Origin: Candidatus Peregrinibacteria bacterium
GTDB lineage: Bacteria > Patescibacteriota > Gracilibacteria > UBA1369 > LOWO2-01-FULL-3
Length of the DNA: 64,000 bases
Direction: 5' to 3'
Assembly: GCA_018654255.1 (NCBI GenBank)
Contig: JABILX010000001.1
Span: 145,695 to 209,694 of the forward strand
Shown here: positions 41,601 through 59,900 of the stretch, piece by piece
Numbering within the stretch: the first letter of the stretch is position 1
How the letters are laid out: each line of letters begins with the position of its first letter
Position numbers and translations under genes: made by a program
The notes under the pieces: generated by a model
Databases searched by the model: none
The model's input: the letters and a program-made list of their open reading frames with translations, nothing else
Told to the model about the DNA's origin: nothing

Positions 41601-44600
41601 AGGCGAGATAAGATTAATGAACGATACGACAGGACTAGCAGTAATAGGTGATTGGGAGCTATTTGCTGAACCATGGGGATACTTCGTGAATTTCCCGGTG
41701 CAAGACCCACTAGACCCAAATACTAGCTACACAGTTTATATAAACAAAACAGTAGCAGATACAAATAATTCCCCAGTTCCTGCACTAGATGACAACGGGG
41801 ATTCATTTAGCTTCACTTTCACAACATTTGATGAAGGAAATGATGACCTAGGAGGAACTACATTCGGACCTCTTTGTGAACCAGAATGGCCACCTCACAT
41901 GGATACAATTGGTCCAATAGATTCAATGAACATCCCAATCTCTTGTGACAAACCAGTCAAAATATCAACACTTGGAGGGAATGTCACAGTTGTTGAAGTC
42001 CATCCAAATACACTAGAAGAAATTGGACCAGCTAGTGAAGCATTCATAATTAATTATGACGATTATGAAGATGACGGCAAAGTAGATATGTTCTCAGTAT
42101 CAGGATTTTCAGCGGAGAGCCAAAAAGCCTACAAAATAATTCTGTCAGACCAGATAACAGGAAATACTCCGATAGCAGGACTGGATGGTATGACCTACCC
42201 ATACACGAACGCAAATAAAACTTTCGTTTGGTGGGGAGATGATAGGACGGACTACTACTCAATCTTCTTCGTAGATGGACAAGACACAGGAGGGTATCAA
42301 TCAGATTTTGAAATGACATGGACAAACTTAACGAATTACTCAGAGCAGGATTACATAGCTACTGCTGTTCCAACAACAGAAAAGATCGAATTCAGTGTAA
42401 ACCAACCATACAACATGGCCACTGCAGTCGCTAGTAACATCAAAATTATAGACTCAGGGGAACAGACAGTGTCAGCAACAATATTTCATGAAGATATGGC
42501 GGGAGGACTGATAGCGATCAGGCCAGACACACCTCTGACAGAAGGTGAAACATACCAATTAGTGATAGGCCAAGGATTGAAGAGTTTAGAAACCCAAGAA
42601 TCACTGCCGGAGACGGTATATTGGACTTTCACAGTTGGGAGTACAGACGCGCAGGCACCAAGAATTGATTGGGCTATGTTTACAGAAATTGGAGGAAGGA
42701 TCTTCTTCAATGAGCATATGCATGAGATAGCGGCGGCAACAAAGACAAACTATACTTTATACACATGTTCAAGTTGGGTAGAGAGTGATTATACATGTTC
42801 AGATGGTGGAAGTCCCGCAGAGGAAGTAACCCTCACAACCCCTAATATTGAATTCAACTACTACGACTACAATTCAACCAATGGCGAAAACAATTACGTA
42901 GAAATTTCAGGTTTAGATTTGACGCCAGGGAATGGGTATAGAATCGCAGTCACCGGTCTCACAGATGTAGCAGGAGTTGCAATAGAATCAACTGCTGATG
43001 AATGGGCGGACTTTGTGGAAGAATACACAAATGTAAATAATGACGGTGAATATGATGGTGAAACAAATCTATTCTCACCAGTACAAGTGACGCCACTTAA
43101 CAGAACGGCAGGACAGATCTCAACATACTACGTAGACTGGCCTGTTGATGTTAAGATCCCACAGGGCGGTAGAGTAGAGTACATCTTCCCAGATGGATTC
43201 GATGTAACAAGCGTCAAGGATATGCCAGAACAAAGTGGTGTAAACGCAGATCTAAATGGATACCACAACGGAAATACAGTTACATTTGCATCAGAAAGTC
43301 TGCAAGCAGGATGGACCGCAGGTGGGGATGGATCAGATGGAATAATGGTAAAAGGTACAAGGACAATTACCTACAGATTGTCAGCAGCAACAGAGCCATC
43401 TGACTACATCTCGTCCGACATGTTCCAAGTATTGAATACAACCATGCCTGGCGAATACAACATCCAAATCAAGACATTCGATTCAAATGGGCTGCTCCTT
43501 GAAAATAAGTACTCACAAATGTTCGACATAGAAAAATCAGGAGACAATAGTCTTAGCGGACGAGTAACCATCGCAAATACCAACACAGGAGTCGCAGGAG
43601 TCATGCTAGAAATTGACAAATGGGATGGTAAGAGATGGGAGGTCACCACCGACGCAAGCGGTGACTATGAAGTTACAGGTCTAGGAGAAGGAGACTACAC
43701 AATCTCTACAGAAAGAGCAGTGATTAAACTAAATGGCGGAGTACTAGAAGGAGTAAATGACGAATGGGTGTATGTCAATGAAGATACGACTCTCAACTTA
43801 GAACTTCACAAGAGAGACTCAAGCAATGGTGCGCTTACTAATATAACCGTAAACGTAGGCGGAAACGGGCTAGATGACATCGATAACCTCGGGGCAGGAG
43901 ACGCAATCCACCTATGGGCATGGGGTCCAGGAGGAGGATTCTTTGAAGAAATAAAGAGAAGTGACTTCACTAACAATTCATACACTACAAGCACTTACTT
44001 TGACGTAGGAAGTGAGTACTCGGTAGGTATGGGGCCAGCTCTAAATGAGAATCAAAATCTATCAAAGATAGACTGGATAGCCCCAGAGGAAGAATGGTTC
44101 TATATAGAGAACACTTCGGATACTGCAAGCGTAACGCTAACAATGACACCGGCAACGACAGATATCACAGGTACAGTCTACATGGCTGATGGTGACACAG
44201 CATCAAACATGGAGGTATCAGCATTCAACAACAATGGATACCATACCTTCACGACCACCGACGCAAACGGTGACTTTACACTTGCTGTTGTCGACAACAT
44301 GAAATGGAAAGTCGAAGCTATGAAATGGGGAATGGCTCCATCGCAAGAGATACCTGTCGTCATTAAAAACGGAACCACATACAAAGGAGGCGAAGAAATA
44401 GAATCTCTGGATATCTATATGAAGACCTCTGCGACAATAACAGTGCAAGGTGCAGTATCAATAGATGGTACGGCAATCCCATGGGCATCAGTGGAATGGT
44501 GGAGAACAGATGAACCATTCCAGCCAATATGGGGATATACAGATGCAAATGGTAACTACACCGTAAATCTGATCGAAGGTGATTGGCAGGCAAAAGTCCA

Positions 44601-47600
44601 CGTATATGAATACGGAGAATTTGATCCAGTGACAATTAATAACATAACTGAGTCTCTTGAGAACCAGGACTTCAACCTCTCAACAAGTGGTAACTACGCT
44701 ACGATAAACGTCACAGTATCAGGATTTGACGACAATAGTGGCATAGAAATCTGGGCAGAAAAAACCGACAACGCTAGTTATACAGACTTCTTTGGTAAGA
44801 GTGGTTGGACCAATTCAGATGGTGTAGTTCAGATGTACGTAAAACCTGGTACATACAAGCTTAGAGCTCACAAACCAGGCTCTGGAGATATTGGTGTCAC
44901 AACAGCTGTAGGAACAGCAGACCAAACAACAAACGTTGCCATCACCGCACCAGACCTACAACAGTTCACTGTAACAGTGAAAAACAAAGGTGGATCTGTA
45001 GAGACAATGAACCAGCCTATCCATATCGACTTATGGGATGAAACAAACGGAACAGGTCAATACGGGTCTGTCCCAGCAGGACAATCACAAATCGTGATGA
45101 ACGCGATGGAAGGAACAAAATTCATCAACATAGGTATGCCAGGTATCCCACCAGATAGCGTGATGATATCAGGAGCAGCATACAACGCAACCAACAGGAC
45201 TGTTACAATTAACGGATCAAGCAACGACATCACAGTCACAATCCCGCAGCTTTACTCAGTTTCAGGACAGGTCGTAGACCAAGATGGAAATGGAATTGAC
45301 GCGTGGGTAAACTTCATGAACGAAGAGGAAGGTAAATTCATGGGAACACCTTCTTACTACGACGCAGCAGGCGGAGGTGAGAGCGGTGAATTTTCAACCT
45401 CTATACCATCAGGTACATACGAAGTATTTACAGAGTCAGGTGAAGGAGGGTCTATACCAGCAACCCTAACGGTTAACGCCGATCTCTCAGATTATGAGCT
45501 CGAAATCACTCTATACGACTACACAATCACAGGAACGTTGACAGATCCAAGCGGTACTGCGGTAACAGAAGGACATGTATGGGGACAAAATGAAACAGGA
45601 CAAGTATCAGCAACTCCTCTTAATTACGACGGTACATTCACACTCCCTGTTAATGAAGGAACATGGTCATTCCAAGGACACTCTTGGGGATACGGTGAAT
45701 CAGCAGAAAAAGAAGTCTCAATAACAGGGAACACCGCAACCACTCTTCAATTAACAACGATAACTGAAGCATTGAAAGAACCAGTAGCGTCAGTAATTGA
45801 TGAAAATGGTGGGACTATCTCGGACAGCGGTACAGGTACAGAAATCCAATTCCCATCTTCAGCACTACCAGACGGTAACAACAATATTACCACGCGTGAA
45901 GACAACGCAGTCTTTGATGGTCAAAGTAGTGGTCCTGTAGGAAATGGACAGGCGATAGAAGCAACCGACTCAACAGGTAGCTCAATTACAACCCCAGATG
46001 ACGAAGTTAAAATAGTTCTAAAGACAACATATGAGGAGCTAACAGACGAAAGTATCACAACGGTTGAAGAAGCAAATCAAATGATTAATGCATCTTGGGA
46101 CTCAAGTACAAATAATTGGGAAACAGTAACTACCACCAACGCATTCTACGACAGTGCTGACCAGACTATCTCATATACATCAATTTCTGACTTAACTCTG
46201 GCTCAATCAGTGACGAACTACGACCTCAGTTACGTCAAGTCAACATCATGGGTAGATCATTTCACCACCTTCGCCCCAGTAGTTCCAATAGGTGGAGATG
46301 CAGCCCCATCAGCACCATCAGGATTCTCAATAGTAGCTGGAGACACAGAAGCAGCTCTAACCTGGACCGCAAACTCAGAAGGAGACATGGACTACTACAA
46401 TATCTGGGAAGCTGAAGTTACAGAGGGAGTGCACTCAACATTCAGCCAAGCTAGTTGTGGAGCAACTTGTTCTACAACAATCACAGGCCTCACGAACGAT
46501 ACTGAATACATCTTCCAGATATTAGCCGTAGATGACGGAGCCAACCAATCAGCAGGAAGCTCATCAATCTCAGTAACTCCAGTTGCAGAGCCAACAGGAG
46601 AAGTATTGACTCCGGCTACGTCTCCAGGAGCAGGAGTAGTTCTACCATCTGGAGGTAGCGGAAGATCACCTTCAAGACAGCAAGAACAAGAAGATATAGC
46701 AGAATTCATAATAGAAACTGCAAAAGACATAGTAGATATCTCAGCAGTAGGTGTAATCAAAACCGCAACAACGGTTATCTCAGCAGATCAATTAGTTAAC
46801 GTCACATTCGAGAAAAATACAACCATCCTTGATGGCGATGCAGACTTCTCTGCAGGACTCCCAGCACCAGAGATTGTTGAAGTATCAACACCAGCTCCAG
46901 AAAACACAGCTCTAGTCGGAAACGTATACGAAATCGGATTGTCTGACACTGCCCTCATACTAAGCAAACCTGTAGCAATCAGGATCCAAGTTCCACAAGG
47001 ATTCAACGAAAACGACAACCTCAAGATCCACTATCTAGACGAAGAAAATGACGAATGGGTCATGGTAGAGGATGGAGGTGACTTCGTTGACATTGATGAT
47101 GATCTGTTTGTAGAAGTTGAAGCGTATCACCTAACGAAGTTCTCGATCATCAAGCTTATCGAAGCGATTGTGGAAGACGAAGACGACTTTGACGAAACAC
47201 CAGTAGTAGTCACCCCTCCAACAGCAGTAAGCTTCTCAGACATCGCTACGCACTGGGCGAAAGAATACATCGAATCGCTATACGCAGCAGGTGTCATAAA
47301 AGGTAAGACTTCAACAGAGTTCGCACCTGAAGCTGAGGTTCTAAGAGCAGAAATGGTCAAGCTCGCAATCGAAGGATTCAACATCCTACTAACTACCACA
47401 GGACCAACTCCATACACAGATGTAGGTGTAAATGATTGGTACATAGACTACTTCAGGACAACTGACGAATACGATATAACAGAAGCGAACGAGGATGGAT
47501 CAATCCTTCCTGCAGAACCACTAACAAGAGCGGAAACAATCGAGATACTATTGAAATCATCTGGATTAAACATAGAAAATCCAACGACGAGCAGTTTCAG

Positions 47601-47790
47601 TGACGTATCTGTAGATCATTGGGGACTACAATACATCGAAACAGCTGCCTCACTAGGAATAGTATCAGGATACGCAGACGGTTCATTCGGACCAGAGGAC
47701 CCAGTAACTCGTGCCGAAGCGACTAAGATGTTGTCTAAGACAATGAAACTCAAAAAGTTGCGGGACCTGTTGTTAAGATGGAAATTTTGA
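32668..47790 (+). CDS. Giant secreted SLH-anchored surface protein (5040 residues)
   Basis: One uninterrupted 15.1-kb gene. A signal peptide (KKLLASISCMAILFGMV, cleavage near AFA-GPP) precedes two related modules of about 400 residues (from about 339 and 735) separated by GEGEGE linkers. Calx-beta domains lie near 1397-1505, 1513-1626, 1632-1751 and 2128-2258 (for example DEDVEENEFLSF, DDEDVEDDEFITL). Repeated Cys-paired modules of several hundred residues, related to each other, fill about 1757-2935. Ig-like Big_5-type domains follow at about 2941-3330, and at least six carboxypeptidase-regulatory-like beta-sandwiches at about 3627-4367 (TTDASGDYEVTGLGEGDYTI). An FN3 domain (4545-4638) and three SLH modules (4852-5031) end the protein with a basic tail (KKLRDLLLRWKF). 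Calx-beta domains usually bind calcium. Probable S-layer-like or adhesive fibre; own promoter and terminator. Stop is TGA. Confidence 0.88.
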   Translation: MKTIKKLLASISCMAILFGMVPDLEMPVAFAGPPTQVVATEGAGGGQSDYALTIAFDMPVDALGPPTATFKIDQSPETCLASGGPSVIDATTQAGLPGGGLLYVVEFPADPACLLVDQGSPAAVTITMYDDQGGPMPFATSLPLGAFQPDMFDFIGVLQGLYGGGGGGNVQPLLFSKSFPGGVGINPDSPPSDYNIGTNGDILLGVDIDEDPATCANAVSFVPINMSILSLPSCIQSSLDPNDKWDINNIVMGENNSDATFDLTPYPAGSPVTTVSNLIPALDLWGYQQDPPTPSDTELYKNEGYELVPGLYIWYGGEFDLDALERGGGDPVGGVMTWVGTPGASNMTLSNVGVDQEFVDPGIYDSEYAVWGDPVNGQPQYKQDGPGEYYVFLIVEKEEYLISNTPYGGEGVELMYLDQGPDPSDPTGDYMWDPGGAEGEGEGEGETFGIEQGMITVNNQEAGNPPNKVRYFVEPQTSYFDAESGADSTTNYKLLDGEQDWGYGVVSAALGCEDELPENAGQFHCAEVVYEKSLIFGGGIYGAVINAQNIKDASTGNIETLGQGSIEPEISFSAPGGIDLLAAIHNYQTETDCAGSTGDTFELFLGSQLNAETIVEENFIVKYDGVPQEGRPQEEDPQDRIFPSTAEPKGAGYVILTYDTSLDICSDEPPLEISVVINPGNPANPVADQGATAIPNDTEFVFNNGTYYEEDGGLVAWDFGWGGGEGEGEPSTATLTWDGTPLSSTLTLAENVQGANPDAYGTYAEEGVHNDEPYFKHSANEFYIFSDGGDQWHISIELGGGVEMSGPGTGAGNPEGDYNAPEPQGPSFNLSGAEIQMIDNPDTTRSPRRVRYYFQNGTVYDESGADGSGPEDPNNYALQNGEWGQSVESVNFPEDCTVDFINYTCVDTVYSNSLLYNGEIYNTKVKGASISNTGDSATLEQDLFPETNASINALGVEPLFINHSYIGNPCESGEIDVLDLYFGERLDIDSAQATGNYSLTYNETSHIEPQAAQLINSFGSRVRLDFGTGLGICSGGEPNLSLNVDGVQNDVQDAIVVDTNYPFNNVTWYQDDSVNANISWDYGWVGGEGEGEGEPEGGLTILPLGSPRVGVDIPLDIQGTLCDGVLGCDVYISDPTMTGLTPSYSITDADLPFTIQLADTSGIGSGEKILFIHDKDADTYSPVVNLLLMVQNYNEPLIFNPGDIGGPTNTVNIQYDSPATATDLSDTDAFTLKNGGADPTATATDISGGMMIVWSVVFDGEDITANLPGWTLDSGYFGDVPILTGADFQVIATSAINPNDINLDGPGREVQTLTSFTVEAPQLCKGITGCMTYLYDSASLAAGTPIYAGNPWNGLEVLDVSGLGLTPDAKYGIAVLDLDTAAWSGFGSLTYAPPDPYLNVTVTGPVAEDGGVGTITFAAGPSVDSDITIDISLLGSATVGVDYTLDPGTQVTIPANPGSPEEVQISVTMIGDEDVEENEFLSFNMQVSDPSYAVSNPYPFMFIADGAAPAPEGYVVNIFPVDNNGLENGGFFNAFDVVVDSEVTDEDLTVFLNLSGDADPGAGGDYEPVALAIVPIGQTSQLVQLNIINDENVEGDEMITMTIAPSATYNIGSNDFASFTIIDDDFAPPPTYEVNVTPYGAGTGVEGGGAGGAFDMFEIALDRPVEGDQFDVYFNFMNSTAIEGNDFAPYTYTVTFILGEQSKLINIPTIDDEDVEDDEFITLKLDSDPEDPDVYVVGQNNSANFTLTDNDVGEEIVVNWAADYAASKPYLDDIVGIDITSETCVDKVFQITIGDKNTFDGAVFTTGSTVEISELHDFAQELGMIEAGTYYARAECANTGTPSAPISIDFKASCPGGEACFSTAPNGDGSRAFLANDEVVTIDDGTVSASLTVPAGSSIVTQEVWSGDLLVTGADMVPLGAGLSSGVVVSVIPTENWNPLSTSAMLTDPALVIINLDGPLATPKAVSIRPDASVDILAPCGTSFLGGDLTKPGNYSLDPDSACFIYDGANDRGIIATNHFTDFAIGEGESITLGWTGDPGTPDQLVDVPLEVSIVDGACMDGDYVYKLTEAGGPANYISEPTQSVDWTFTPSEDFVRGTTTYNMRAVCPGTGVLSNEIQIYLVGLGNEVTITPMQDGVEDPSSPVSLEILFAMEEINPGPGAIPVYFDIDNTPGPGIALPGVDYDDTGILFDGNHYRVEIPEGQDMTSLFIPVFDDLDVEGLEEILIFPQASPTGDYLIMNTGMPAEEPIRGAITDDEGPEEIIISFKENPTGQYVNRPVKVNVDAANCSGLGNYYLNIGNDKNFADVTYSIPAGQEASWTVNPGGLLGLTDAGFYYFMASCEESEVTSNGLTADLAAACAAGVCMTPATEDTATSNTLAHQVMVEDTPVGKVYFEGVTTATASAAWGGDLLLLSSIGNTLSLANAIRIGLAAPQSLPLSETITTDMPVVIKFASAGFPAASIAEQKNMDTNETTAVPKCTGVQYDPANNPTAPSSYAVNPGESCYYFNHGNDPKAIFVATTYLQTMYSVGAPEFIFAGWGPGGKTDPYSVEVDTEATLGIKGGACIGQEPVYWVSDSVNFDSPNTNNLSPMGGETFAEFMIPAPDYTPGDTLYGKIVCPGSGAESNVVTAAILAEEMLMADFAQDYNGTSINTAITMVVEDQASVCNSGKYIYSLSDDWDQGTQLPMGNIISSGETSNTSFTFNDPSKTFPYVEFMTVYATAECSESGTMMEGMYMMYQPTPPCSTDLCVVVDTQTYTGTVMSPMGSTYVDAETIPSDPVSVYLPNNFQTLSSQEPAWNGGITVTVASAAQMMPEDYDSGAVATIAPDESPEVFINDSTYLVIMNNEGFESLENPAVTYINKFDNSFNVTQCDENQFMGNEDDPIEPFDPSRYNIALGERCYIYSEAAFQGETGNVIIATKQFGKYISGNSIGGGEAIQYYHPKNNDTVGVWPGISIELSADLSENFGQVVFPNTAVGEIRLMNDTTGLAVIGDWELFAEPWGYFVNFPVQDPLDPNTSYTVYINKTVADTNNSPVPALDDNGDSFSFTFTTFDEGNDDLGGTTFGPLCEPEWPPHMDTIGPIDSMNIPISCDKPVKISTLGGNVTVVEVHPNTLEEIGPASEAFIINYDDYEDDGKVDMFSVSGFSAESQKAYKIILSDQITGNTPIAGLDGMTYPYTNANKTFVWWGDDRTDYYSIFFVDGQDTGGYQSDFEMTWTNLTNYSEQDYIATAVPTTEKIEFSVNQPYNMATAVASNIKIIDSGEQTVSATIFHEDMAGGLIAIRPDTPLTEGETYQLVIGQGLKSLETQESLPETVYWTFTVGSTDAQAPRIDWAMFTEIGGRIFFNEHMHEIAAATKTNYTLYTCSSWVESDYTCSDGGSPAEEVTLTTPNIEFNYYDYNSTNGENNYVEISGLDLTPGNGYRIAVTGLTDVAGVAIESTADEWADFVEEYTNVNNDGEYDGETNLFSPVQVTPLNRTAGQISTYYVDWPVDVKIPQGGRVEYIFPDGFDVTSVKDMPEQSGVNADLNGYHNGNTVTFASESLQAGWTAGGDGSDGIMVKGTRTITYRLSAATEPSDYISSDMFQVLNTTMPGEYNIQIKTFDSNGLLLENKYSQMFDIEKSGDNSLSGRVTIANTNTGVAGVMLEIDKWDGKRWEVTTDASGDYEVTGLGEGDYTISTERAVIKLNGGVLEGVNDEWVYVNEDTTLNLELHKRDSSNGALTNITVNVGGNGLDDIDNLGAGDAIHLWAWGPGGGFFEEIKRSDFTNNSYTTSTYFDVGSEYSVGMGPALNENQNLSKIDWIAPEEEWFYIENTSDTASVTLTMTPATTDITGTVYMADGDTASNMEVSAFNNNGYHTFTTTDANGDFTLAVVDNMKWKVEAMKWGMAPSQEIPVVIKNGTTYKGGEEIESLDIYMKTSATITVQGAVSIDGTAIPWASVEWWRTDEPFQPIWGYTDANGNYTVNLIEGDWQAKVHVYEYGEFDPVTINNITESLENQDFNLSTSGNYATINVTVSGFDDNSGIEIWAEKTDNASYTDFFGKSGWTNSDGVVQMYVKPGTYKLRAHKPGSGDIGVTTAVGTADQTTNVAITAPDLQQFTVTVKNKGGSVETMNQPIHIDLWDETNGTGQYGSVPAGQSQIVMNAMEGTKFINIGMPGIPPDSVMISGAAYNATNRTVTINGSSNDITVTIPQLYSVSGQVVDQDGNGIDAWVNFMNEEEGKFMGTPSYYDAAGGGESGEFSTSIPSGTYEVFTESGEGGSIPATLTVNADLSDYELEITLYDYTITGTLTDPSGTAVTEGHVWGQNETGQVSATPLNYDGTFTLPVNEGTWSFQGHSWGYGESAEKEVSITGNTATTLQLTTITEALKEPVASVIDENGGTISDSGTGTEIQFPSSALPDGNNNITTREDNAVFDGQSSGPVGNGQAIEATDSTGSSITTPDDEVKIVLKTTYEELTDESITTVEEANQMINASWDSSTNNWETVTTTNAFYDSADQTISYTSISDLTLAQSVTNYDLSYVKSTSWVDHFTTFAPVVPIGGDAAPSAPSGFSIVAGDTEAALTWTANSEGDMDYYNIWEAEVTEGVHSTFSQASCGATCSTTITGLTNDTEYIFQILAVDDGANQSAGSSSISVTPVAEPTGEVLTPATSPGAGVVLPSGGSGRSPSRQQEQEDIAEFIIETAKDIVDISAVGVIKTATTVISADQLVNVTFEKNTTILDGDADFSAGLPAPEIVEVSTPAPENTALVGNVYEIGLSDTALILSKPVAIRIQVPQGFNENDNLKIHYLDEENDEWVMVEDGGDFVDIDDDLFVEVEAYHLTKFSIIKLIEAIVEDEDDFDETPVVVTPPTAVSFSDIATHWAKEYIESLYAAGVIKGKTSTEFAPEAEVLRAEMVKLAIEGFNILLTTTGPTPYTDVGVNDWYIDYFRTTDEYDITEANEDGSILPAEPLTRAETIEILLKSSGLNIENPTTSSFSDVSVDHWGLQYIETAASLGIVSGYADGSFGPEDPVTRAEATKMLSKTMKLKKLRDLLLRWKF
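33681..35954 (+). repeat. Two tandem ~1.2-kb modules with GEGEGE linkers in the giant gene
   Basis: Corresponding landmarks recur about 395 codons apart: WVGTPGASNMTLSNVGV and WDGTPLSSTLTLAENVQ; NKVRYFVEPQTSYFDAESGAD and RRVRYYFQNGTVYDESGAD. GEGEGE-coding stretches occur at about 33979, 34838 and 35935. The copies are diverged at DNA level, so the duplication is old. Confidence 0.7.
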
Positions 47791-48912: not shown

Positions 48913-51804
48913 ATGCAAAAAGACAAGATCATAGTGAGGGGTGCAAGAATGCACAACCTCAAAAACATCACGGTCGAAATTCCTAGAGACAAGCTGACGG
49001 TTATCACCGGTCTATCAGGTTCAGGGAAGTCAACTTTGGCATTCGATACCATCTACGCAGAGGGCCAACGCCGCTACGTAGAAAGTTTATCTACATACGC
49101 CAGACAGTTCCTACAGATGACAGAAAAACCAGATGTAGACGCAATAGAAGGACTTTCTCCAGCAATCTCAATAGATCAGAAAACAGCCTCAAGAAACCCA
49201 CGTTCAACAGTAGGAACAGTTACCGAAATATATGACTACCTAAGACTTCTTTTCGCAAAAATAGGAACCCCACATTGTCCAGAATGCGGAGACCCAATAA
49301 AGAGACAATCACCAACTCAAATCACAGAAGAAATAGCCAAAATGAAAGAAGGGACAAAGATTTTGATCCTTTCTCCAGTCATAAGAGGCAAAAAAGGACG
49401 CCACGAACAGGCTATAGAAAAAGTTAGAAAAGAAGGATTCGTAAGGGTAAAAATAGACGGAGAAGTCTACCCAATAACAGAACAATTTGATCTGGATGAA
49501 AACAAGAAACATTCAATAGAAATAGTCGTAGATCGTATATCTGTAAAAGACCTCGGACAACAAACAAAAAAACTATCATCAGGAGAAGAAATCCAACTTC
49601 CAAATCCAGCCAGAACAAGGTTGGCGGATTCAGTAGAGACAGCCTTGAAGTATGGGGATGGAATCTTGATCATTCAAGACGCAGATACCAAGAAAGAAAA
49701 GGTCTACTCAGAACAATTTGCATGTGCAAAATGTAATATTTCAATTCTAGAAATATCTCCTAGAAGTTTTTCTTTCAACAATCCGCACGGAGCTTGTCCA
49801 GAATGTCACGGACTCGGTACAAAGTTAGAAATAGATCCAGAACTTGTTATTCCAAACAAGAAATTAACTCTAGCAGAAGGAGCGATAATGCCTTGGTCAG
49901 CGACTACGTCTCATTTGACCTGGTATAACAGAATTCTAGAATCAGTTGCAAAAAGGCACGGATTCTCAATGGACAAAAAAATCGAAAAACTATCAGAAGA
50001 ACAAATCAATTTAATCCTAAACGGACCTGGTAACGGAGAAAAATACAAAGTAGTAATGGGGGAACACGACACAAAAAGCAAATTCACCGGCGAATACGAA
50101 ACAGAATTCGAAGGAGTTATTCCAAATCTAGAAAGAAGATATCTAGAAACAGACTCAGACTACATAAGAAGAAAGATAGAAGAATACATGCGTATTCTGG
50201 AATGCCCCGTTTGTCATGGCAAAAGACTCAAGCCAGAAATCCTTTCAATCACAATAAATGACACCTCTATAATAGATGTGACCGAATTATCGATAAAAGA
50301 TGCGATACACTTTTTCCAAAACTTGAAGCTGACGGAAACCGAGCAACAAATAGCTCGCCAAATTCTACAAGAAATCACAAACCGATTAGGATTCTTAGAA
50401 AAAGTTGGACTTTCATACATAACGTTGGATCGAAAGGCAAATACACTGTCCGGCGGAGAAGCACAGCGAACTCGTCTTGCAACCCAAATTGGATCGAAGC
50501 TCTCAGGCGTTATTTACGTCTTAGATGAACCTTCGATCGGTTTGCACCAGAACGACAACGCCAAGCTCATTGAAACGCTAAAATCGCTCAGAGACATCGG
50601 AAACACAGTAATTGTGGTCGAACATGACGTGGATACGATGATGGTTGCGGATCACATCCTAGACATAGGGCCCGGCGCAGGAAAAAGGGGAGGAGAAGTT
50701 GTAGCCAGGGGATCGCCAGAAGAAATAATGAAAGACAAGAATTCAGTCACAGGACAATACCTCGCTGGCAAAAAGAAAATAGAAGTCCCAGAAAAAAGAA
50801 GAAAAGGAAATGGAAAATATATAAAAATAGTAGACGCAGAGGAACACAATTTAAAAAAGATATCAGTTGAACTTCCATTAGGTACTTTCATCGGAATTAG
50901 TGGAGTGTCGGGTTCTGGTAAATCAACATTGATCAACGATATTTTGGTAAAGAGAGTCTATAAAGAACTCCACGGGTCAAAAACACACCCAGGAAAACAC
51001 GAAAGAATCGAAAACATCAACCACATCGATAAAATAATAAACATAGATCAGTCTCCCATAGGAAGAACCCCAAGATCAAACACAGCTACCTATACCGGAG
51101 TTTTCACAGACATAAGGGACATCTTCTCTCAAACCCCAGAGTCACGTCTGAGAGGATACAAACCAGGTCGCTTCAGCTTCAATGTAAAAGGAGGACGATG
51201 TGAGGATTGTAAGGGCGACGGAATCAAAAAAATAGAAATGCACTTCCTTCCAGATATATACGTGCCTTGTGAAACCTGTAAGGGCAAAAGATACAACCTA
51301 GAAGCATTAGAAGTTAAATACAGAAGCAAGAACATATCAGAAGTACTCGAAATGACAGTAGACGAGGCTTTGGAATTTTTTGCAGCCATACCTTCAATCA
51401 AGACCAAGCTAAAGATTTTAAGTGAAGTCGGATTAGGATATATATGCCTAGGGCAATCAGCCCCAACCTTATCAGGTGGGGAAGCGCAAAGAATCAAACT
51501 ATCAACCGAGCTCGCAAAACGTTCTACAGGTCAAACTCTCTACATATTGGACGAACCAACCGTCGGTCTACACTTTGACGACGTCAAACGTCTACTAAAA
51601 GTCCTTCAAAAACTTGTAGATAAGGGAAACACAGTTCTGACAATAGAACACAACCTCGACGTGATTAAATCAGTAGATTACGTGATAGACTTGGGGCCTG
51701 AAGGAGGTGATGAAGGAGGTGAAGTCATAGCAAAAGGAACTCCAGAAGAAATAATAAAGGTAAAGGAGTCGTACACAGGTCAATGGTTAAAGAGAATGCT
51801 CTAA
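48913..51804 (+). CDS. uvrA: Excinuclease ABC subunit A
   Basis: DNA damage-recognition ATPase of nucleotide excision repair; forms UvrA2-UvrB and hands the lesion to UvrB. At 963 residues it is full length. First ABC half: [20 protein letters not shown], zinc site CPECGDP and a second CxxC pair (CAKC with CPEC), [16 protein letters not shown] and [14 protein letters not shown]. Second half: [16 protein letters not shown], the [16 protein letters not shown] zinc module, [18 protein letters not shown] and [13 protein letters not shown]. Nothing appears degraded. No uvrB or uvrC is adjacent. ATG start without Shine-Dalgarno, own promoter. The stop precedes the 10-bp periodic array by about 40 bases, with no convincing terminator between. 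Confidence 0.98.
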
Positions 51805-51842: not shown

Positions 51843-52052
51843 TTTAACAAACTTTAATAAAGTTTAATCATCTTTATTAGAATTTAATCAAATTAAGCCA
51901 AGTTAAATCAACTTTACAAAAGTATTGTAAAATTATGTAAATTATGGTAAATTTGCTCACGCTTTTGTAGGATTTAATCAAATTAAATAAACATTGATCA
52001 AATTCGCTCAAATGTGGTAGGATTTGTTCCAATTTAATTAAGTTTAATGAGA
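51843..52052 (+). repeat. 21-unit, 10-bp periodic direct-repeat array upstream of the HTH gene
   Basis: Read in steps of exactly 10 from 51843, the sequence is a continuous head-to-tail series: tttaacaaac, tttaataaag, tttaatcatc, tttattagaa, tttaatcaaa and so on, to tttaattaag and tttaatgaga, which includes the A of the start codon. The consensus is TTTAATCAAA. Unit position 6 is T in about 17 of 21 units, and the first two positions are mostly T and the last three mostly A or G. A few central units are degenerate (ttgctcacgc) but stay in phase. The period equals one helical turn, so all sites face the same side of the DNA. It contains a candidate promoter. Confidence 0.85.
51994..52023 (+). 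promoter_or_regulatory. Candidate promoter inside the 10-bp array
   Basis: TTGATC, 18 bp, TAGGAT, with the start site expected about 20 bases before the ATG. Its place inside the repeats would let a protein bound to the array block transcription. Confidence 0.4.
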
Positions 52053-52333
52053 TGGAACAATACCTAACCTCCGAGCAGGTAGCAAAGCTGCTTCAGGTTC
52101 ACCAGTTCACAGTTCTGAAATACTTGAAAGACGGTCGAATCAAAGGAGTTAAAATCGGAAGAGTGTACAGAATTAAAGAAAGCGAAGTAGAAAATTTCTT
52201 AAATAGAGTATCTACGACCAAAGAAGAGCCAAAGGCAGAAGAACCAAAAGTAGAAAAACCAGTGACGGTTAAAGAGAAGATAGAAGAACCAAGACCAACC
52301 AAGCTCGAAGACGAATACTTCAAACTGTTATAA
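52052..52333 (+). CDS. BldC/excisionase-like single-domain HTH protein
   Basis: A 93-residue DNA-binding protein. Residues 1-52 form a MerR-type winged helix-turn-helix of the excisionase/BldC kind: YLTSEQVAKLLQVHQFTVLKYLKDGRIKGVKIGRVYRI followed by ESEVENFL. The rest is a Lys/Glu/Pro linker (KAEEPKVEKPVTVKEKIEE) ending in a short hydrophobic tip, DEYFKLL, which may be a protein-binding peptide. There is no effector or dimerisation helix. BldC of Streptomyces, with the same single domain, binds AT-rich direct repeats as head-to-tail multimers; the array before this gene has just that layout, so autoregulation is likely. No integrase or phage genes are nearby, so a recombination role is less likely. 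Followed 45 bp later by a zinc-ribbon gene. Confidence 0.88.
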   Translation: MEQYLTSEQVAKLLQVHQFTVLKYLKDGRIKGVKIGRVYRIKESEVENFLNRVSTTKEEPKAEEPKVEKPVTVKEKIEEPRPTKLEDEYFKLL

Positions 52334-52378: not shown

Positions 52379-52552
52379 ATGATCATCAGTTGTTTAAAAT
52401 GCGGCAAATCTGTATCAAGTCATCAAATGGATTGTCCATACTGCAAAGCCGTTATTTGTGATTACACGAGACAAGCGAACGGACTAAAAGCCAACATGAG
52501 ACCAAAAGAAGGATTAAGGTTGAACTTTCTTCAGACTTTTGCAAAAAGATAA
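52379..52552 (+). CDS. Small zinc-ribbon protein
   Basis: A 57-residue ORF below the ORF-track length limit. It begins MIISCLKCGKSVSS and continues DCPYCKAVICDYT, giving two CxxC pairs (CLKC, CPYC) 11 residues apart, the layout of a zinc ribbon. The C-terminal half is basic (KANMRPKEGLRLNFLQTF). It lies 45 bp after the HTH gene on the same strand and is followed by a terminator about 50 bases later, so the two are likely co-transcribed. Coding is supported by the ordered Cys pairs, the ATG start and the terminator position. Function unknown; zinc ribbons often bind nucleic acids or proteins, so it could be a partner of the HTH protein. Confidence 0.7.
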   Translation: MIISCLKCGKSVSSHQMDCPYCKAVICDYTRQANGLKANMRPKEGLRLNFLQTFAKR

Positions 52553-52602
52553 ATTATATCTATTAAAAAACTTCAGCCCATATAAGCCCTAGAAAAGCCC
52601 TA

Positions 52603-52642
52603 AAAACTCCCCCTTAAGAAAAAATCTTCTGGGGAGTTTTTT
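52603..52642. terminator. Bidirectional terminator between convergent operons
   Basis: AAAACTCCCC (52603-52612) pairs with GGGGAGTTTT (52631-52640), with a nested AAGA/TCTT. T runs on the plus strand follow the stem, and the A run before it gives a T run on the minus strand. It can serve both the zinc-ribbon gene and the minus-strand operon. Confidence 0.85.
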
Positions 52643-52661
52643 ACTTTCCAAACCAAAAGGT

Positions 52662-53798
52662 TTACTTCGGACATTGTTTATCAAGCATATGCTCAACGCA
52701 ATCTTCAACCTGTCCAATTGTGGCAATTCCCTTGATCACATAAAACTTAAACTCATCCACGGCTTTTATAAACGCTCTAACATGAGCATCGGTGTTGTGT
52801 TTATAAAGTGCTTCGTATCTGGCCTCTAATTTTGCTTTCTGGACCTTAGCTTCATATTCTACTCTAGCAGAGCCCATAGCGTTCAAAAGGGTTCCTTGAT
52901 CGATAGTATCACCACCACTACTCCAGAAATCATTACCTTTGACCCCCTCCAAGATCTCTTCAAATCCCTTCTGTGGATCCAAACCATTCAACTTCACATC
53001 AAACATATTTTTTATAAATCCTCCAGAGTTAGATGAGCCAATCTTCTTGAGGTCTTCAGCAGATTCTCGTATTGCTTCAGCCCCACTGAGAGCAGCATCC
53101 TCTATTGCTTCAGCTCCTTCACGAAGACCACCCAAGTTATCAATAAACTCAACAAATTTATCCTTAACTCTCTGCCAACCATTTTCATCACAGTCGACAT
53201 ATTTAAACTTACGAGACTCATATTTAGTTTTAATTCTTTCCATTACAATATTAAATTCATCAGGACCATATTTCCCAAAAACCTTCTCATATTTCTCCAC
53301 CATCTTGCCATGAAGAATCTCCGGATCTTCAAGCTCAACATTCTTTTTTTCTCCAATATCAACAGTCCCCATAGATGCAGTATCAAGAAGCTCTCCCATA
53401 GCAGATCCAAATTTCAACTTAACAAGATTCCTCACATAATAAAGTTCGGCATCCACCTCGTAATAAGCCTTTTCAATAGAAGGAATCTCCTCACGATCAC
53501 ACATCAAGAAAGCTTGCTGTATTGCTTTTCTAGCAGCATCGAGCTCAGAATCCAAAGCCATGATATCCAAGACCTGACACGTGTTTCTGAAAAGATCTAA
53601 TATTGGGTTCAGGAGCTCCATATAACTCTGATTCCCAAGTATAGACTGCAAGAACGCACCAAGTTCCAAGTCTCCCTGCTTACACTCAGTTACAGTATGA
53701 GCATTTTCACTAGCCGCAAACCCCTTATCAGAAAAAACAAATATACCGCTTCCAACTAGGAATACTCCAGTAAATAAAATCAATGATATTTTTTTCAT
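52662..53798 (-). CDS. Secreted or membrane-anchored helical protein, last gene of the minus-strand surface operon
   Basis: A 378-residue exported protein with an N-terminal signal or anchor (KKISLILFTGVFLVGSGIFVF, then AASENA). The remainder is mostly helical and charged, with a few Cys (TECKQGD near the start, CEHMLDKQCP at the end) that could pair outside the cell. No family recognised. I start it at MKKISL, whose ATG overlaps the upstream stop as TAATG, rather than three codons earlier as in the ORF track; this coupling also occurs at 56414. It ends next to a bidirectional terminator, closing a five-gene operon whose first known gene is the giant surface protein. Probably an extracytoplasmic partner of that protein. 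Confidence 0.7.
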   Translation of the reverse strand: MKKISLILFTGVFLVGSGIFVFSDKGFAASENAHTVTECKQGDLELGAFLQSILGNQSYMELLNPILDLFRNTCQVLDIMALDSELDAARKAIQQAFLMCDREEIPSIEKAYYEVDAELYYVRNLVKLKFGSAMGELLDTASMGTVDIGEKKNVELEDPEILHGKMVEKYEKVFGKYGPDEFNIVMERIKTKYESRKFKYVDCDENGWQRVKDKFVEFIDNLGGLREGAEAIEDAALSGAEAIRESAEDLKKIGSSNSGGFIKNMFDVKLNGLDPQKGFEEILEGVKGNDFWSSGGDTIDQGTLLNAMGSARVEYEAKVQKAKLEARYEALYKHNTDAHVRAFIKAVDEFKFYVIKGIATIGQVEDCVEHMLDKQCPK

Positions 53799-55729
53799 TA
53801 TTGGCATGTTTCTTTAGTTTTTATTGTTTTACAGATTTCTCCTGAAATCTTTTCAAAATGGCTAACAAACGCTTTGAAATACTCGGTCATCTGACCTACT
53901 TCCAACAAAATACTCTCAGAATACGCAGCATAATCCTGTGCGATAGATTGTAACGCATACTGCTCAACTTCATCAGCTGCATCCATTGTCATCTGTTGTT
54001 GCATCAACGAAATTTCACTCACGTAATCTGAAATATTATTACTATCAATATTCTGCTCCACCCAGGCAGCCGCCCTAGAATTGTTATATTCCTCTATCAT
54101 CGAATGTCCGAGTGGCTCACCATCTTCATTTTCAAGAAAAAGAGGGTGATTTTTATTAACAAAATTTTCCCACTCTTCAAAAACGCTTTTCCCAAAAATA
54201 GCATCGTTGCCAGGAGGCGTTTCTACAGGCGCATAAACAGTATGAAAATTAATATTAATATTACTTAAAGCATCAATAAGGCCTCTCTTGCAAAGCGAAC
54301 TTTCCAACAAATTCCCGGTCAATTTGTTTGGCAACAATGAAGAAGAAATAGTCTTATTCATATAAGCCAAGATCTTCTCAAACTCACAAGAAAAACAAGG
54401 ATCATCAGGAACAAAGGATTTATAAACCTCCCATTTCTCAGAATAATCCAAGCAGATATAAAACTCAGCATCCGCCAGAGGAATTCCAGATTCGGTTGTA
54501 AGAGAAATTCCAGATTCGGTTGTAGGAGGGGTCTCAGCAGATCCACCTGTACCAACAGGCTCAGTATAACTTTCCGTCGCCAAGGGGTCACTAAGATCAG
54601 TAAAATCAATCGATCCATTCTCCGCAAGATTCTTTATATTATCAAAAGAAAAGAATATCAATCCATCACATTCATCATTTTTCTTCCAATCTGCAGGTTC
54701 TTCAGGGATCAATTTCTCTTCCAAAGTCTTCTCTTCCTCTGGTTTCTCAACATCGACCTCTTCAACATCAGAATCAGGTTCAGGTTCATTCTCCTCAAAA
54801 TATTCTTCAATCTCCTCATCGTAATCATCCAAAGCATCAGCCAAAGGATCATCCTCTTCTGTAGGACAAACATCTTCTTCTATGTATTCAACCAAATCTT
54901 TCGCATCAAATTCTTCGAGCTCTTCGTCTTCTGCATCACCACCCTCCTCATCCAGATTCAAAACATAATATGCGTGCGAAATTTCAGGAGCGAGAGGCCC
55001 TTCCTCGTGGTAAGTAGTATCCTCCATCCCAAGATCATCAACAGAAGTATCATCATCACTTCCAAGATCAACGCTTTCCACAGGAGTACTTATATCAAAC
55101 AATACTTTCTCTATTTCAGACAAATCAAAGACAAGGTCAAACCCAGAATCATCAAGATCACCATTTGAAAAGATCTCAGACAATTGACTAGACGACATAA
55201 GCTCCTGCTTCAATTGATATATCTCATACACATCGTTAAATTCACGGCGAAACCCTGCCGCAGCAGCGAGAATCTCGCCTTGAGTCATATTGTTTCCCAA
55301 TCCAGGAAGCAGTCGTTTAACAGGCCCTAAGGAACCATTCATGAGATCGGCAGCTTCTAGGGGAGTGATGTTATAACTATTAGCAATTTCAACAAGAGCT
55401 CCCTCCTCAGGATCCTTGACCCCAACCCAAAGCATCATGCCGTATAGATTTTGATAATTAGCCTCACCAGGATTTCCACCAGTAAGCATAGTCTTCAAAT
55501 TCCCACTAAAGACCTTTAGCTCCTTCCCGAAATCAGCAGTATACCCTTTATGCCAAGAACCTTCACTAATCTCATTATACAAAGCAGAATTCAAGAAAGG
55601 ATCCTCCTCAATAGACTCAGCAATAGCTCTATGTTGATATTGATAAACCAAAGGTTGCAAAACAATCAGCGAAACGAACGCGAGAGCGCCTACTAGTATT
55701 CCTATCAATATGTCTTTTTTAGTTTTCAT
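53798..55729 (-). CDS. Membrane-anchored acidic extracytoplasmic protein
   Basis: A 643-residue protein with one N-terminal membrane segment (ILIGILVGALAFVSLIVLQPL) and a large, very acidic outer part. Residues of the middle third are dominated by Asp and Glu (DDYDEEIEEYFEENEPEPD), suggesting calcium binding or an extended polyanionic region. A few Cys occur in pairs (FSCEFEK, SLCKRG, ICKTIKTKETC). A short internal duplication encodes TESGISL and TESGIPL. The ORF track starts 11 codons earlier, but MKTKKDIL begins 4 bases after the upstream stop and leads straight into the membrane segment. No family recognised. Its position suggests a structural role in the same envelope complex as the neighbouring genes. 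Confidence 0.7.
   Translation of the reverse strand: MKTKKDILIGILVGALAFVSLIVLQPLVYQYQHRAIAESIEEDPFLNSALYNEISEGSWHKGYTADFGKELKVFSGNLKTMLTGGNPGEANYQNLYGMMLWVGVKDPEEGALVEIANSYNITPLEAADLMNGSLGPVKRLLPGLGNNMTQGEILAAAAGFRREFNDVYEIYQLKQELMSSSQLSEIFSNGDLDDSGFDLVFDLSEIEKVLFDISTPVESVDLGSDDDTSVDDLGMEDTTYHEEGPLAPEISHAYYVLNLDEEGGDAEDEELEEFDAKDLVEYIEEDVCPTEEDDPLADALDDYDEEIEEYFEENEPEPDSDVEEVDVEKPEEEKTLEEKLIPEEPADWKKNDECDGLIFFSFDNIKNLAENGSIDFTDLSDPLATESYTEPVGTGGSAETPPTTESGISLTTESGIPLADAEFYICLDYSEKWEVYKSFVPDDPCFSCEFEKILAYMNKTISSSLLPNKLTGNLLESSLCKRGLIDALSNININFHTVYAPVETPPGNDAIFGKSVFEEWENFVNKNHPLFLENEDGEPLGHSMIEEYNNSRAAAWVEQNIDSNNISDYVSEISLMQQQMTMDAADEVEQYALQSIAQDYAAYSESILLEVGQMTEYFKAFVSHFEKISGEICKTIKTKETCQ
54482..54524 (-). 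repeat. 24-bp tandem duplication in the acidic membrane protein gene
   Basis: A 19-base identical core (aattccagattcggttgta) occurs twice with a period of 24 bp at 54482 and 54506, keeping the reading frame and duplicating eight residues. Confidence 0.8.
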
Positions 55730-55733
55730 AAAA

Positions 55734-56414
55734 TTATTCACAACCTTTTTTACTTGTTGCATCTACGTATTTTGTTGGGAGTCTCATAGCATCTCTACGG
55801 ACCCAACGAACCGCATTTCTATATTTATAAAGCAAATCAATAGTCTCCTCATATTTCTTATGCATAGGGTAAGCGACGCGGAGCTCATTATAAGCTGCAA
55901 TAGTTGCATCCATCACCGCATAAGCACTGTCTTTTTCTCTTGCAACAGCATCATTCAACAAAGAAGAAAGCCCGAGGACTTGTGAAATGGAAGTCTCCCC
56001 AAGACCAGTCAAACCGAGAGTCAGGTACTTCATAAGAGTAGGCTCTGTTTCCAGATCAAAAGGACCAAAAAGAGCTTTCACTCGATCCAAAGTATCAAGA
56101 TAAGCCATATATCTATCCAGCGCTCCCATCGCAACACAATATGTACTGATATTATTAGGAGGACATTCCTCTCCAGTAGGGGGCAACTGATTAGGATCAT
56201 CCAATTTCATGGCAAGCATCTTCTCAATCTTCTCATTGAAATACATACTCATTTCGATATGGTACGTATACTTAACCAACCCAAAACCCAACTTCGGACT
56301 TTCAAATTTATAAGAATCTCCCGACGCCAACATCACATACCCAGAATAGAGCATGAAATATGTCGCAAACGCGGTCACAAGTAATCTAATTGTCCATTTA
56401 AATTTGAGCTTCAT
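55734..56414 (-). CDS. Hypothetical membrane-anchored protein
   Basis: A 226-residue protein with an N-terminal membrane segment (LLVTAFATYFMLYSGYVML) and an outer helical part. Two Cys flank a Pro-rich loop (EECPPNNISTYC) and one more is near the C-terminus. The final third is helical and charged (EKDSAYAVMDATIAAYNELR). No family recognised. Its ATG overlaps the stop of the preceding gene as TAATG, implying coupled translation, and its own stop is 4 bases before the next start. The compact arrangement and shared topology with both neighbours suggest that the four small genes encode subunits of one envelope complex. Confidence 0.7.
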   Translation of the reverse strand: MKLKFKWTIRLLVTAFATYFMLYSGYVMLASGDSYKFESPKLGFGLVKYTYHIEMSMYFNEKIEKMLAMKLDDPNQLPPTGEECPPNNISTYCVAMGALDRYMAYLDTLDRVKALFGPFDLETEPTLMKYLTLGLTGLGETSISQVLGLSSLLNDAVAREKDSAYAVMDATIAAYNELRVAYPMHKKYEETIDLLYKYRNAVRWVRRDAMRLPTKYVDATSKKGCE

Positions 56415-56959
56415 TAGTCAGACATAAAACAATTATCGATATAACAAACTATACGGTTATTAAACGTCGCAAACGCAGCAACTATCTGTGCAATCAAGAA
56501 ATTCAAGTCAGAAAGCTTGGAATTAATAGCCTTATATTTATCTAATAAAATAGATGACGTTTTAAATAAAGTTGTGGTTCTCACATGATTTTTCAACATG
56601 TCCTTTGCTTGTACAACCATTTTCTCAGTTATACGGATACAAGCATCCAATTGGCTGATTTGATCGGTAGTACTTTGGTTGCCAGATTTATACTTCGAAA
56701 ACTCGTCATATGCCGAAGTCCGCAGGGCTTTGTATCCATCAACAGCCTGATCCACCAAGGCAGAATTCAACTTATCGCTCTTGAAATGTTTGTCCAAAAA
56801 TCCTTGAAAAATAGCATTTTGCTCAGTCATAAAAACCGTCATGCCCTGAACGCAATTCTCATAACCATATATCTCGGTAATAGGAGCCGCAAAAGCACCA
56901 GCCATACTCTGGAAAATTAAAACCACAACTATTATCAGGCTATTGAACCTGTTCTTCAT
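56414..56959 (-). CDS. Small secreted helical protein
   Basis: A 181-residue exported protein with a clear signal peptide (LIIVVVLIFQSMAGAFA-AP). The mature part is helical, with four Cys placed as two near the start and middle (YENCVQG, LDACIRI) and two at the end (RIVCYIDNCFMSD), likely disulfide-bonded outside. I start it at MKNRFNSL; the ORF track begins four codons earlier. Either start lies inside the 3' end of the giant gene (20-bp overlap), and its stop overlaps the next ATG. No family recognised. The size, helical content and signal fit a small structural or chaperone-like partner of the giant surface protein. Confidence 0.7.
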   Translation of the reverse strand: MKNRFNSLIIVVVLIFQSMAGAFAAPITEIYGYENCVQGMTVFMTEQNAIFQGFLDKHFKSDKLNSALVDQAVDGYKALRTSAYDEFSKYKSGNQSTTDQISQLDACIRITEKMVVQAKDMLKNHVRTTTLFKTSSILLDKYKAINSKLSDLNFLIAQIVAAFATFNNRIVCYIDNCFMSD

Positions 56960-59900
56960 TACTTTTCGCATATATTTTAGGATTTATTGGGTCGTTATTA
57001 ACTATTATTGTATAGAGAACGTCTCCAGTTCTCAAATCTGATTTATATTTGAATGTACTTAGACATGGACAAGTTACGCACGCAGGAGGAACTAGATAGA
57101 TTCCAGGCTCAGTCTCATATATTTGCCCCGTGCCATCATCACCATCTGAATCTCCGTCTCCAGAACCATCAGAGCCACCATCTCCACCATCAGGAGCATC
57201 ATCTTCCTTTTCCAAAGGATCCAACTGAGCCAAAACCTCATCTCCATCACCAACACCACCACCATCAGTATCAAACAGATTTGGATCAGTACCATAAATT
57301 GTAGTCTCAGCGATGTCAGTCAAACCATCCCCATCAGTATCAGGATAATCATCAATTGCGTAGATAGGATTTGTTCCGTGAATCAAAACTTCATCTCCAT
57401 CAGTCTGTCCGCCATCATCAGTATCAGGATCAAATGGATCAGATCCATACAGACATTCCAGGCTGTTTATCAAGCCATCATCATCCTCATCAGCATCCGG
57501 ATCATCGATACCCCATTTCTCTTCACAATAATCAGACATTCCATCATTGTCAGCATCTATATCGTGACAATTGAACGCATCCAAAACTCGGAAAGTTAAT
57601 TCAATCAAATCTTCTTTAGTTAGAAGTTTTCCTGGATCTTGTGCTTCTTCTGATGTAATCAAAGTGGCGCTCTTCAATGCAACACCATCCGCTGTATAAG
57701 CAGTAAGATTCTGTGCAGCATCAAGCAAAGGATCAAACCAAACTTCATCTGCCTCAGGCACAGCTGTTGATAGATCAAGGACACCTTTCATCTCAAGCCC
57801 TCTCAAGATAACAGCAACAGTCTCAGCAAGATTGATTGTTTCTCCAGGTTTGAACGGGGTCTTGCCAGTAAATGGATCGGCCTCTCCTCCATAACCAAAC
57901 ACGAGCTCAAGCAATGATCCCTCCTTCACAAATGGATAATAATAAGGAAGATCCTCTTCTGTATAAGGAATATCAGAGAATGGAGAAGGGCCTTTGTATG
58001 CCTCAGGCCGAGGAACAATACAAAGCATCTTCAGCAGCATGATCACAAACTCAGAACGAGTAGCAAGCATATCTGGATTCAATTTAGTATCTCCACCAAT
58101 AATTCCCATGTAGTACAAGCTCATTGCATAGTCTTTCAACCTACCTGCAATATCAGTATAAATTGGGATAGGTGGTTCCAATATATTTCCTTCCTTCACA
58201 TCTCCAAAAGGTGATTCAACAAACTCTTCTCCATCTTCAGTGTTCATATAACTATCGATAACATATTGTGGGCTTATTCCACTTGGGAACTTGCGAGGGA
58301 CATCATCAGGACCGACGATTTGAACCTTATCAAAAAGTCCCTTCGGCGAAACATAAATAGAAGCAATCTTCATCTCCCCTAAGTCCGAAGCAAACCACAA
58401 TTCATACACAAAAGGATCAAAATCAAATTGATTATCTTTCTTTTTGATACTCATCCTTTCGTCTAATAGATCAATATTTCCCGCACTATCAATAGCAGTC
58501 ATCACAATTCCCTCAGTAACATAATACAAGTATGCGCCTCCAGGATAGTTTGGATCTGTAGCAGGGAAAGACATAAATTCAAACTCATCTTCAGCATCAT
58601 CATCACTAATATCAACTCCACTTAAATTCTCTACAGACGTAGTCGTAAATTCAAACTCATCATAAATATCGACAGCTATATTTCCATCAGACACAAAATA
58701 CAGAGTTGCCATAGTATTTCCGTCAGGACCAATTATCTGAGCGTTAGTAGATTCATTTGGAGGAGAAGCTTCAACAATTTCATAAGTGTAACCTTTCTCT
58801 TCATATACATAGAAATTACCCGTCTTCTCGTCGATTTCAGCTATGATTTCACCTGCAGCATTGATAACCAAAATAACATCATCCATCACAAAATCAGAAA
58901 TAACATAAGTTCCATCCATACTAGTAACATACTGTCCAGCATCATTTGCAGAATCAGTGACGACGGTTTCTTTATCTACAAACAACTTCAACTTGCCATC
59001 AATTACACGAGGGATAGCACGTTCACGAATTAATTTGTAAAGCATATTTCCTGTTGGAGGCTCAGTGTCTCCAGAAACAACTCCAACTTCAACAAAAACA
59101 GGATCCAGATTAATTTTCGGCACATACACATGGATATTCACAATCTGGCTAGATATATGATGAGCTGTATCCATAATATTCAAAGCAACCTGGTGGTCAC
59201 CAATTTCATCAAAAGGCCCAACATTAAATCTAGGATTTGTCATATCATTATCAACCACATCATCTGCGTCAGGCCCATCAGTAAGATTGTCATCATCAGA
59301 CCAGTAATCAATATCGTTCAAAGTATCTCCATCTCCATCTTCATCGACAGCAGTATCCAAATCCAGGTAATAAGCTTCAATCTCTCCACCCGGATCAAAT
59401 GAAGCACTAGCGTCCAAAGTCAAAGTTTCCATTACAGAAATATATATGTCAGTACTAGAAAGTGCAGGGAGCGGAGGAGTGTCATCCGAACAAACATTCG
59501 GAGCCAACGCTACTCCAGATGAAACCAAACTCCTACCACCATTATCTGACAAAGCATAAATACGAGAATAGTAATTTCCATTCGCAATACTCAATTCCAC
59601 AGAAGGATTCTCTTCATCCTGAATATCAAGAATTTCAAATTCTTCACCACCACTCAAAACCATAGAAGCACCATTTGAGAATTCCAAATCAGCTCCTCCA
59701 CTTTCACCAAGAATCATTCTGTCCCCAATCATAAAGGCATTTCCTTCTTGTAGTGGTTTATCTATATTTTCACCTTGTTTCATCTTTTCCAAAGTGCCAC
59801 TAAATATCTGAATAGTAGCATTACCAACAGATGGAGTTGCGGTATAAAACTCTCCTTCTTCCAGCTCCATCTCAATGACAGAGAAACCGCTAGAATTCTT

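Follow-up and report, generated by a model that had tools for sequence, protein, structure and literature searches.

The closest described system is BldC of Streptomyces, which multimerizes head to tail on direct repeats and counts its own gene among its targets (PMC5859096, PMC6428758). The BldC sites studied contain two to four repeats with a 9-bp step and the consensus AATT(N3–4)(C/G), and the regulon is wide (PMC5859096, PMC6428758). RdfS likewise binds and represses its own promoter and forms head-to-tail filaments, with no clear base consensus (PMC11963761). Among the papers searched, none reports a regulatory site of this kind for the class described here.

We analyzed a window of 64,000 nucleotides (the whole stretch of DNA under study), which belongs to contig C2 of a 1.24-Mb genome from a Peregrinibacteria-type member of the candidate phyla radiation. 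Peregrinibacteria are a lineage of tiny uncultured bacteria. At 51,843–52,052 on the forward strand, the window contains 21 decamers in one 10-bp register (210 bp; consensus TTTAATCAAA), which we propose to be an operator. T occupies position 1 in 20 of the 21 units, position 2 in 18 and position 6 in 17, while A is found at positions 8 and 9 in 16 units each. The unit at 51,953 (TTGCTCACGC) is off consensus, and the final base of the last unit is the A of an ATG (52,052) that starts the gene of a 93-aa HTH protein (52,052–52,333, forward strand). With these two corrections, the exact register over 210 bp described in an earlier, sequence-only reading of this DNA was borne out.

That reading called for the autocorrelation at lag 10 to be compared with shuffles and AT-rich stretches, and by this measure the array is unique in the window. 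Identity within the array fell from 0.575 at lag 10 to 0.54 and 0.52 at lags 20 and 30, and was ~0.2–0.4 at most other lags. Shuffling the same 210 bp with a first-order Markov model gave a lag-10 identity of 0.327 ± 0.036, with 0 of 5,000 exceeding 0.49 (z = 6.9), and the maximum among 224 other AT-rich 210-bp stretches of the 64 kb was 0.405. The pattern (TTNNNTNAAN)x3, with two or fewer mismatches, matched 22 times in the window compared to 1.3 expected, and all matches fell within the array. Pattern count, lag identities, shuffles and AT-rich controls together rule out chance or AT-richness as the source of the array.

Periodicity upstream of orthologues, the second check put forward in that reading, was scored by contrasting lags 10, 20 and 30 with other lags, using stretches of the same locus as controls. 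Decamer arrays stand 5' of 59 of the 60 Peregrinibacteria-type orthologues (window included), each scoring above all of its own-locus control stretches. With few exceptions, the relatives carrying the HTH gene are annotated as Candidatus Peregrinibacteria, Peribacteria, Gracilibacteria or Patescibacteria. For other orders of the class, an array was found at 15 of 15 assessable homologues (some of these genomes may already have been counted). None was found at the eight assessable homologues from the phylum outside the class or at six paralogues within the class, and one of eight HTH homologues from other phyla scored marginally above controls. Two genomes had an array and no HTH match; in these, the contig stops just past the array. 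Two orthologues count against our best explanation, that of L120 having only a marginal array and a further one, in G047, having no significant array.

A profile built from 60 loci gave the lineage consensus TTTAATAAA[A/G] and a median of 15 units per array (range 8–24); masked bases produced an artefactual figure for L141 and ~20 spurious units in the total of 947. When loci were folded at period 10 with no prior motif, much the same consensus emerged in subgroups, and it is specific bases that are kept across loci, beyond mere A/T content. Covariation was sought between recognition helix and repeat, and the repeat consensus hardly varies. Unit identity was 0.587 between species versus 0.590 within a locus, an equality that rules out recent tandem duplication and indicates that the array is old, with each unit held by selection.

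By pattern searches and sampled stretches, the array occupies one locus per genome. Three-unit patterns searched in 60 relatives matched in 41 genomes, nearly always adjoining the HTH gene, with few matches to the reversed pattern; a two-unit pattern had the same outcome, matches elsewhere being at the reversed-pattern control level. Across 160 kb sampled from genome G004, all stretches scored 0.089 or less for periodicity, compared to 0.163 for the array of that genome, and a strict pattern applied to 287 phylum genomes returned same-order genomes plus two chance-like matches. Pattern searches of the 60 genomes revealed no array in trans, which counts against our best explanation, and the pilus promoter that was examined has no array. 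A regulon of similar arrays was rejected because matches elsewhere reach only the control level and the recurring TTTAAGAAAATTTAATAAA is an 11-bp Pho-box-like repeat at other genes. Such 11-bp direct repeats around TTTAAGAAAATTTAATAAA (L185, L187, L205, L206, L207 and L208), distinct from the 10-bp array, stand 5' of ComM-like, secreted-protein and other genes in the relatives.

The HTH protein consists of a single HTH_17/MerR-like winged HTH (residues 4–52; Pfam HTH_17, E = 4e-13, sole domain), with no coiled coil or effector domain, and a tail of low model confidence that is probably disordered. In the structure model of an orthologue, the winged HTH is confident and the tail is again of low confidence. 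The HTH is strongly conserved, and orthologues share roughly TxEQVAxILQVHPFTVLKFIKxGKLKGIKLGRVYRIKESDV. About 40 of 62 orthologues are tailed, most of them ending in DHYYII or similar, and ~20 are bare domains of 53–59 aa. The C-terminal motif reads EDEYFKLL/DEYFKLL in the window (52,304–52,330) and DHYYII or HYFII in orthologues (L075–L121); placed after a probably disordered tail, it is possibly a docking motif or degron.

The top Foldseek matches were BldC–DNA structures (TM score of 0.77–0.87 by target length, 32–35% identity), and BldC was also the best match in a PDB profile search. Like Streptomyces BldC (PDB 6AMA, 6AMK), which has the closest fold, the protein is a lone MerR-like winged HTH lacking a coiled coil, and its array, like BldC sites, is made of AT-rich direct repeats in variable number. 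Unlike BldC, there are 8–24 units at one array locus per genome, and many orthologues have an extra C-terminal tail. The step is 10 bp rather than 9 bp, a value also favored by the lineage profile model, and although AATT fits, the C/G place is taken by A (0.65) or T (0.23) in the lineage profile, with C in 8 of the 21 window units. The score against the NCBIfam BldC model NF033787 was 20.5 bits, under its cut-off of 77. Because model score, base consensus and 9-bp step were all missed, we did not file the protein as a BldC-family member: the likeness drawn in the sequence-only reading holds at the level of fold, but not as strict family membership. By analogy, the array may work like a greatly extended BldC-type operator.

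The best NCBIfam match was TIGR01764, a broad model of the excisionase domain (50.8 bits versus a cut-off of 28.8), and the RdfS and Xis excisionases (HTH_17 group; PDB 8DGL, 4J2N) share the same domain family. RdfS and Xis, however, serve an integrase at att sites, whereas no conserved integrase lies nearby here and the unit consensus is clear. No recombinase was recognized among the conserved neighbor clusters. The feature of an excisionase or recombination directionality factor that is lacking, despite the TIGR01764 match, is a linked integrase on a mobile element.

Two promoter sequences lie within the array on the forward strand: P1 (51,925–51,953; TTGTAA-N17-(TGG)TAAATT) and P2 (51,994–52,023; TTGATC-N18-(TGG)TAGGAT), the latter with a predicted transcription start ~20–25 nt 5' of the ATG. 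P2 had been recognized from the sequence earlier; P1, a second conserved promoter that also falls inside the array, lies 69 bp upstream of it. P1-type elements are similarly placed in many relatives (for example, L102, L087, L091, L089 and L080). Of 59 loci, 42 have a promoter of the form TTG-N(16–19)-TGnTAnn[AT]T no farther than 300 bp away, compared to 1.9 expected from shuffles, and many loci have two promoters ~69 bp apart. In most species inspected, the −35, −10 and start regions of both coincide in part with array units. That two conserved promoters lie inside the array points to BldC-like negative autoregulation by cooperative head-to-tail binding, and the coverage of both promoters and the start region by array units fits repression.

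Directly downstream, a 57-aa zinc-ribbon-like protein (52,379–52,552, forward strand; CxxC...CPYC; sub-threshold Pfam zinc-ribbon matches) is encoded by the second gene of a predicted operon, and at 51 of 62 loci the ORF immediately 3' of the HTH gene is a similar one, mostly of 56–60 aa. A terminator-like hairpin between convergent operons (52,602–52,643; AAAACTCCCC...GGGGAGTTTTTT) was read directly from the sequence. The 3' part of the convergent operon (52,662–63,980, reverse strand) encodes four secreted unknowns (381, 654, 226 and 185 aa) and a giant surface protein of 5,138 aa in all, which extends past the window; the genes farther out include those for pilin, PilC, PilB and PilN-like proteins. 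The HTH gene faces the 3' end of this ~22-kb type IV pilus operon, for which domain searches covered the window's own genome. In genomes that were read further, the operon includes PilN-like, PilB, PilC, pilins, a 3,915- to 5,495-aa protein and four secreted unknowns, and it adjoins rplJ–rplL.

All 46 loci for which 5 kb or more of downstream sequence was available have the convergent operon of secreted proteins. The upstream neighbor varies, being uvrA in 41 loci (48,913–51,804 in the window, forward strand; NCBIfam UvrA equivalog; context only) and other genes elsewhere, which leaves the pilus operon as the constant partner of the locus. Conserved neighbors are uvrA, PrsW, RecF-like and the pilus operon, and no motor gene was recognized among them. 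In this lineage-wide pilus operon with its giant surface protein, the four secreted proteins have no Pfam match (window 52,662–63,980; L157–L158). A single ORF at 32,668–47,790, just 5' of the PrsW and uvrA genes, encodes a predicted surface protein of 5,040 aa with S-layer-like repeats near its C-terminus.

The array probably serves as operator for both promoters of the HTH gene, whose product, by cooperative binding, would give steep negative autoregulation. The HTH protein would recognize the TTTAATAAA-type decamer, and its copies would bind cooperatively in head-to-tail order at 10-bp intervals, thus on one face of the DNA, covering P1, P2 and the transcript start. Given enough HTH protein, the operon of HTH and zinc-ribbon genes, adjoining the type IV pilus genes, would be shut off. 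The HTH protein is the candidate binder because the array tracks its orthologues, the HTH is strongly conserved and the fold is BldC-like. We infer that it polymerizes on the array and represses, the latter from the geometry of units and promoters, and that the operon serves the pilus; activation from an upstream block is possible. An autoregulatory operator for the adjacent lone HTH, the main proposal of the sequence-only reading, survived both computational refutation tests, while its landmark and architectural parts, and BldC membership in a strict sense, were not supported.

The same protein and array could instead form an autoactivating switch, in which an upstream block recruits RNA polymerase and makes the operon and, via the operon, the pilus bistable. 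Many species have a separate block of 4–9 units well upstream of P1, and long cooperative arrays could give steep responses. We consider this switch unlikely, however, since in most species inspected units extend over the promoter −35, −10 and start regions as well and should block polymerase there. Comparably small odds attach to the idea that the array-bound filament is the functional output: as a single nucleoprotein switch per genome, it would store the on/off state of the neighboring pilus/attachment locus, with the conserved C-terminal tail and the zinc-ribbon protein relaying that state to the pilus without another DNA target.

Less probable still is a different occupant of the array that binds direct repeats and controls the HTH gene, for instance a response regulator of the OmpR/PhoB type or a nucleoid protein that binds AT-rich DNA. 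OmpR/PhoB-type regulators use 10- to 11-bp direct repeats, and the Pho-box-like repeats occur at other promoters of these genomes. Such a binder would be expected to have arrays at other genes, but none were found beyond the control level, and the array stays with the HTH orthologue despite changes of upstream neighbor.

A centromere-like or landmark site for segregation or anchoring, with one array per genome beside the gene of its binder, has parallels in the pSK1 Par, TubR and RacA systems. pSK1 Par (PDB 8CSH) and RacA (PDB 5I44) have a related winged HTH, and the pSK1 Par repeats likewise adjoin the gene of their binder. The single array locus per genome, this kinship of fold, the 15 lineage genomes without a ParB match above the curated cut-off and the conserved C-terminal motif of tailed orthologues, a possible partner-binding site, are all in its favor. 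Unlike pSK1 Par and RacA, which have plasmid or origin-region functions and coiled-coil or pole-binding parts, the present locus is chromosomal, far from dnaA and beside pilus genes. On the 998-kb single contig of relative G004, the array lies ~464 kb from dnaA (one genome, with dnaA taken as the origin marker), and a centromere or partition site was not supported, the locus there lying far from the origin and no motor gene being recognized among the conserved neighbors. Approximately 20 orthologues lack the tail entirely, and the embedded promoters argue for regulation, leaving the landmark role, raised in the sequence-only reading, very improbable.

Among the 15 lineage genomes searched for ParB, weak matches were seen only in G000, G058 and G036, and much of the lineage may lack a chromosomal ParB. 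GC skew in G004 (L252–L271; twenty 8-kb samples taken around the 998-kb contig) was negative in every sample, from −0.15 to −0.44, on genes of both strands, with no origin/terminus switch seen, as if replication were unidirectional.

A purely architectural role, in which phased A/T tracts bend the promoter DNA without a specific protein, is similarly improbable: AAATTT-type tracts recur in phase in the window, whose predicted bend has z = 2.3, but no conservation of predicted curvature was seen across loci (median z = 0.95, only 24% above 2), the common unit TTTAATAAAG has TpA steps, which break A-tracts, and specific bases rather than A/T content alone are conserved in an array that tracks one protein family. 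Unconserved curvature and the distance from dnaA in G004 thus make the architectural and landmark readings weak.

If bound as proposed, the array would be an unusually long bacterial operator, several times the two to four repeats characterized for BldC, and it is conserved through much of an uncultured bacterial class. Its 8- to 24-unit versions form a natural series for how filament length sets the promoter response. The HTH protein is a candidate regulator tied to a type IV pilus locus, and this pilus may serve attachment to other cells.
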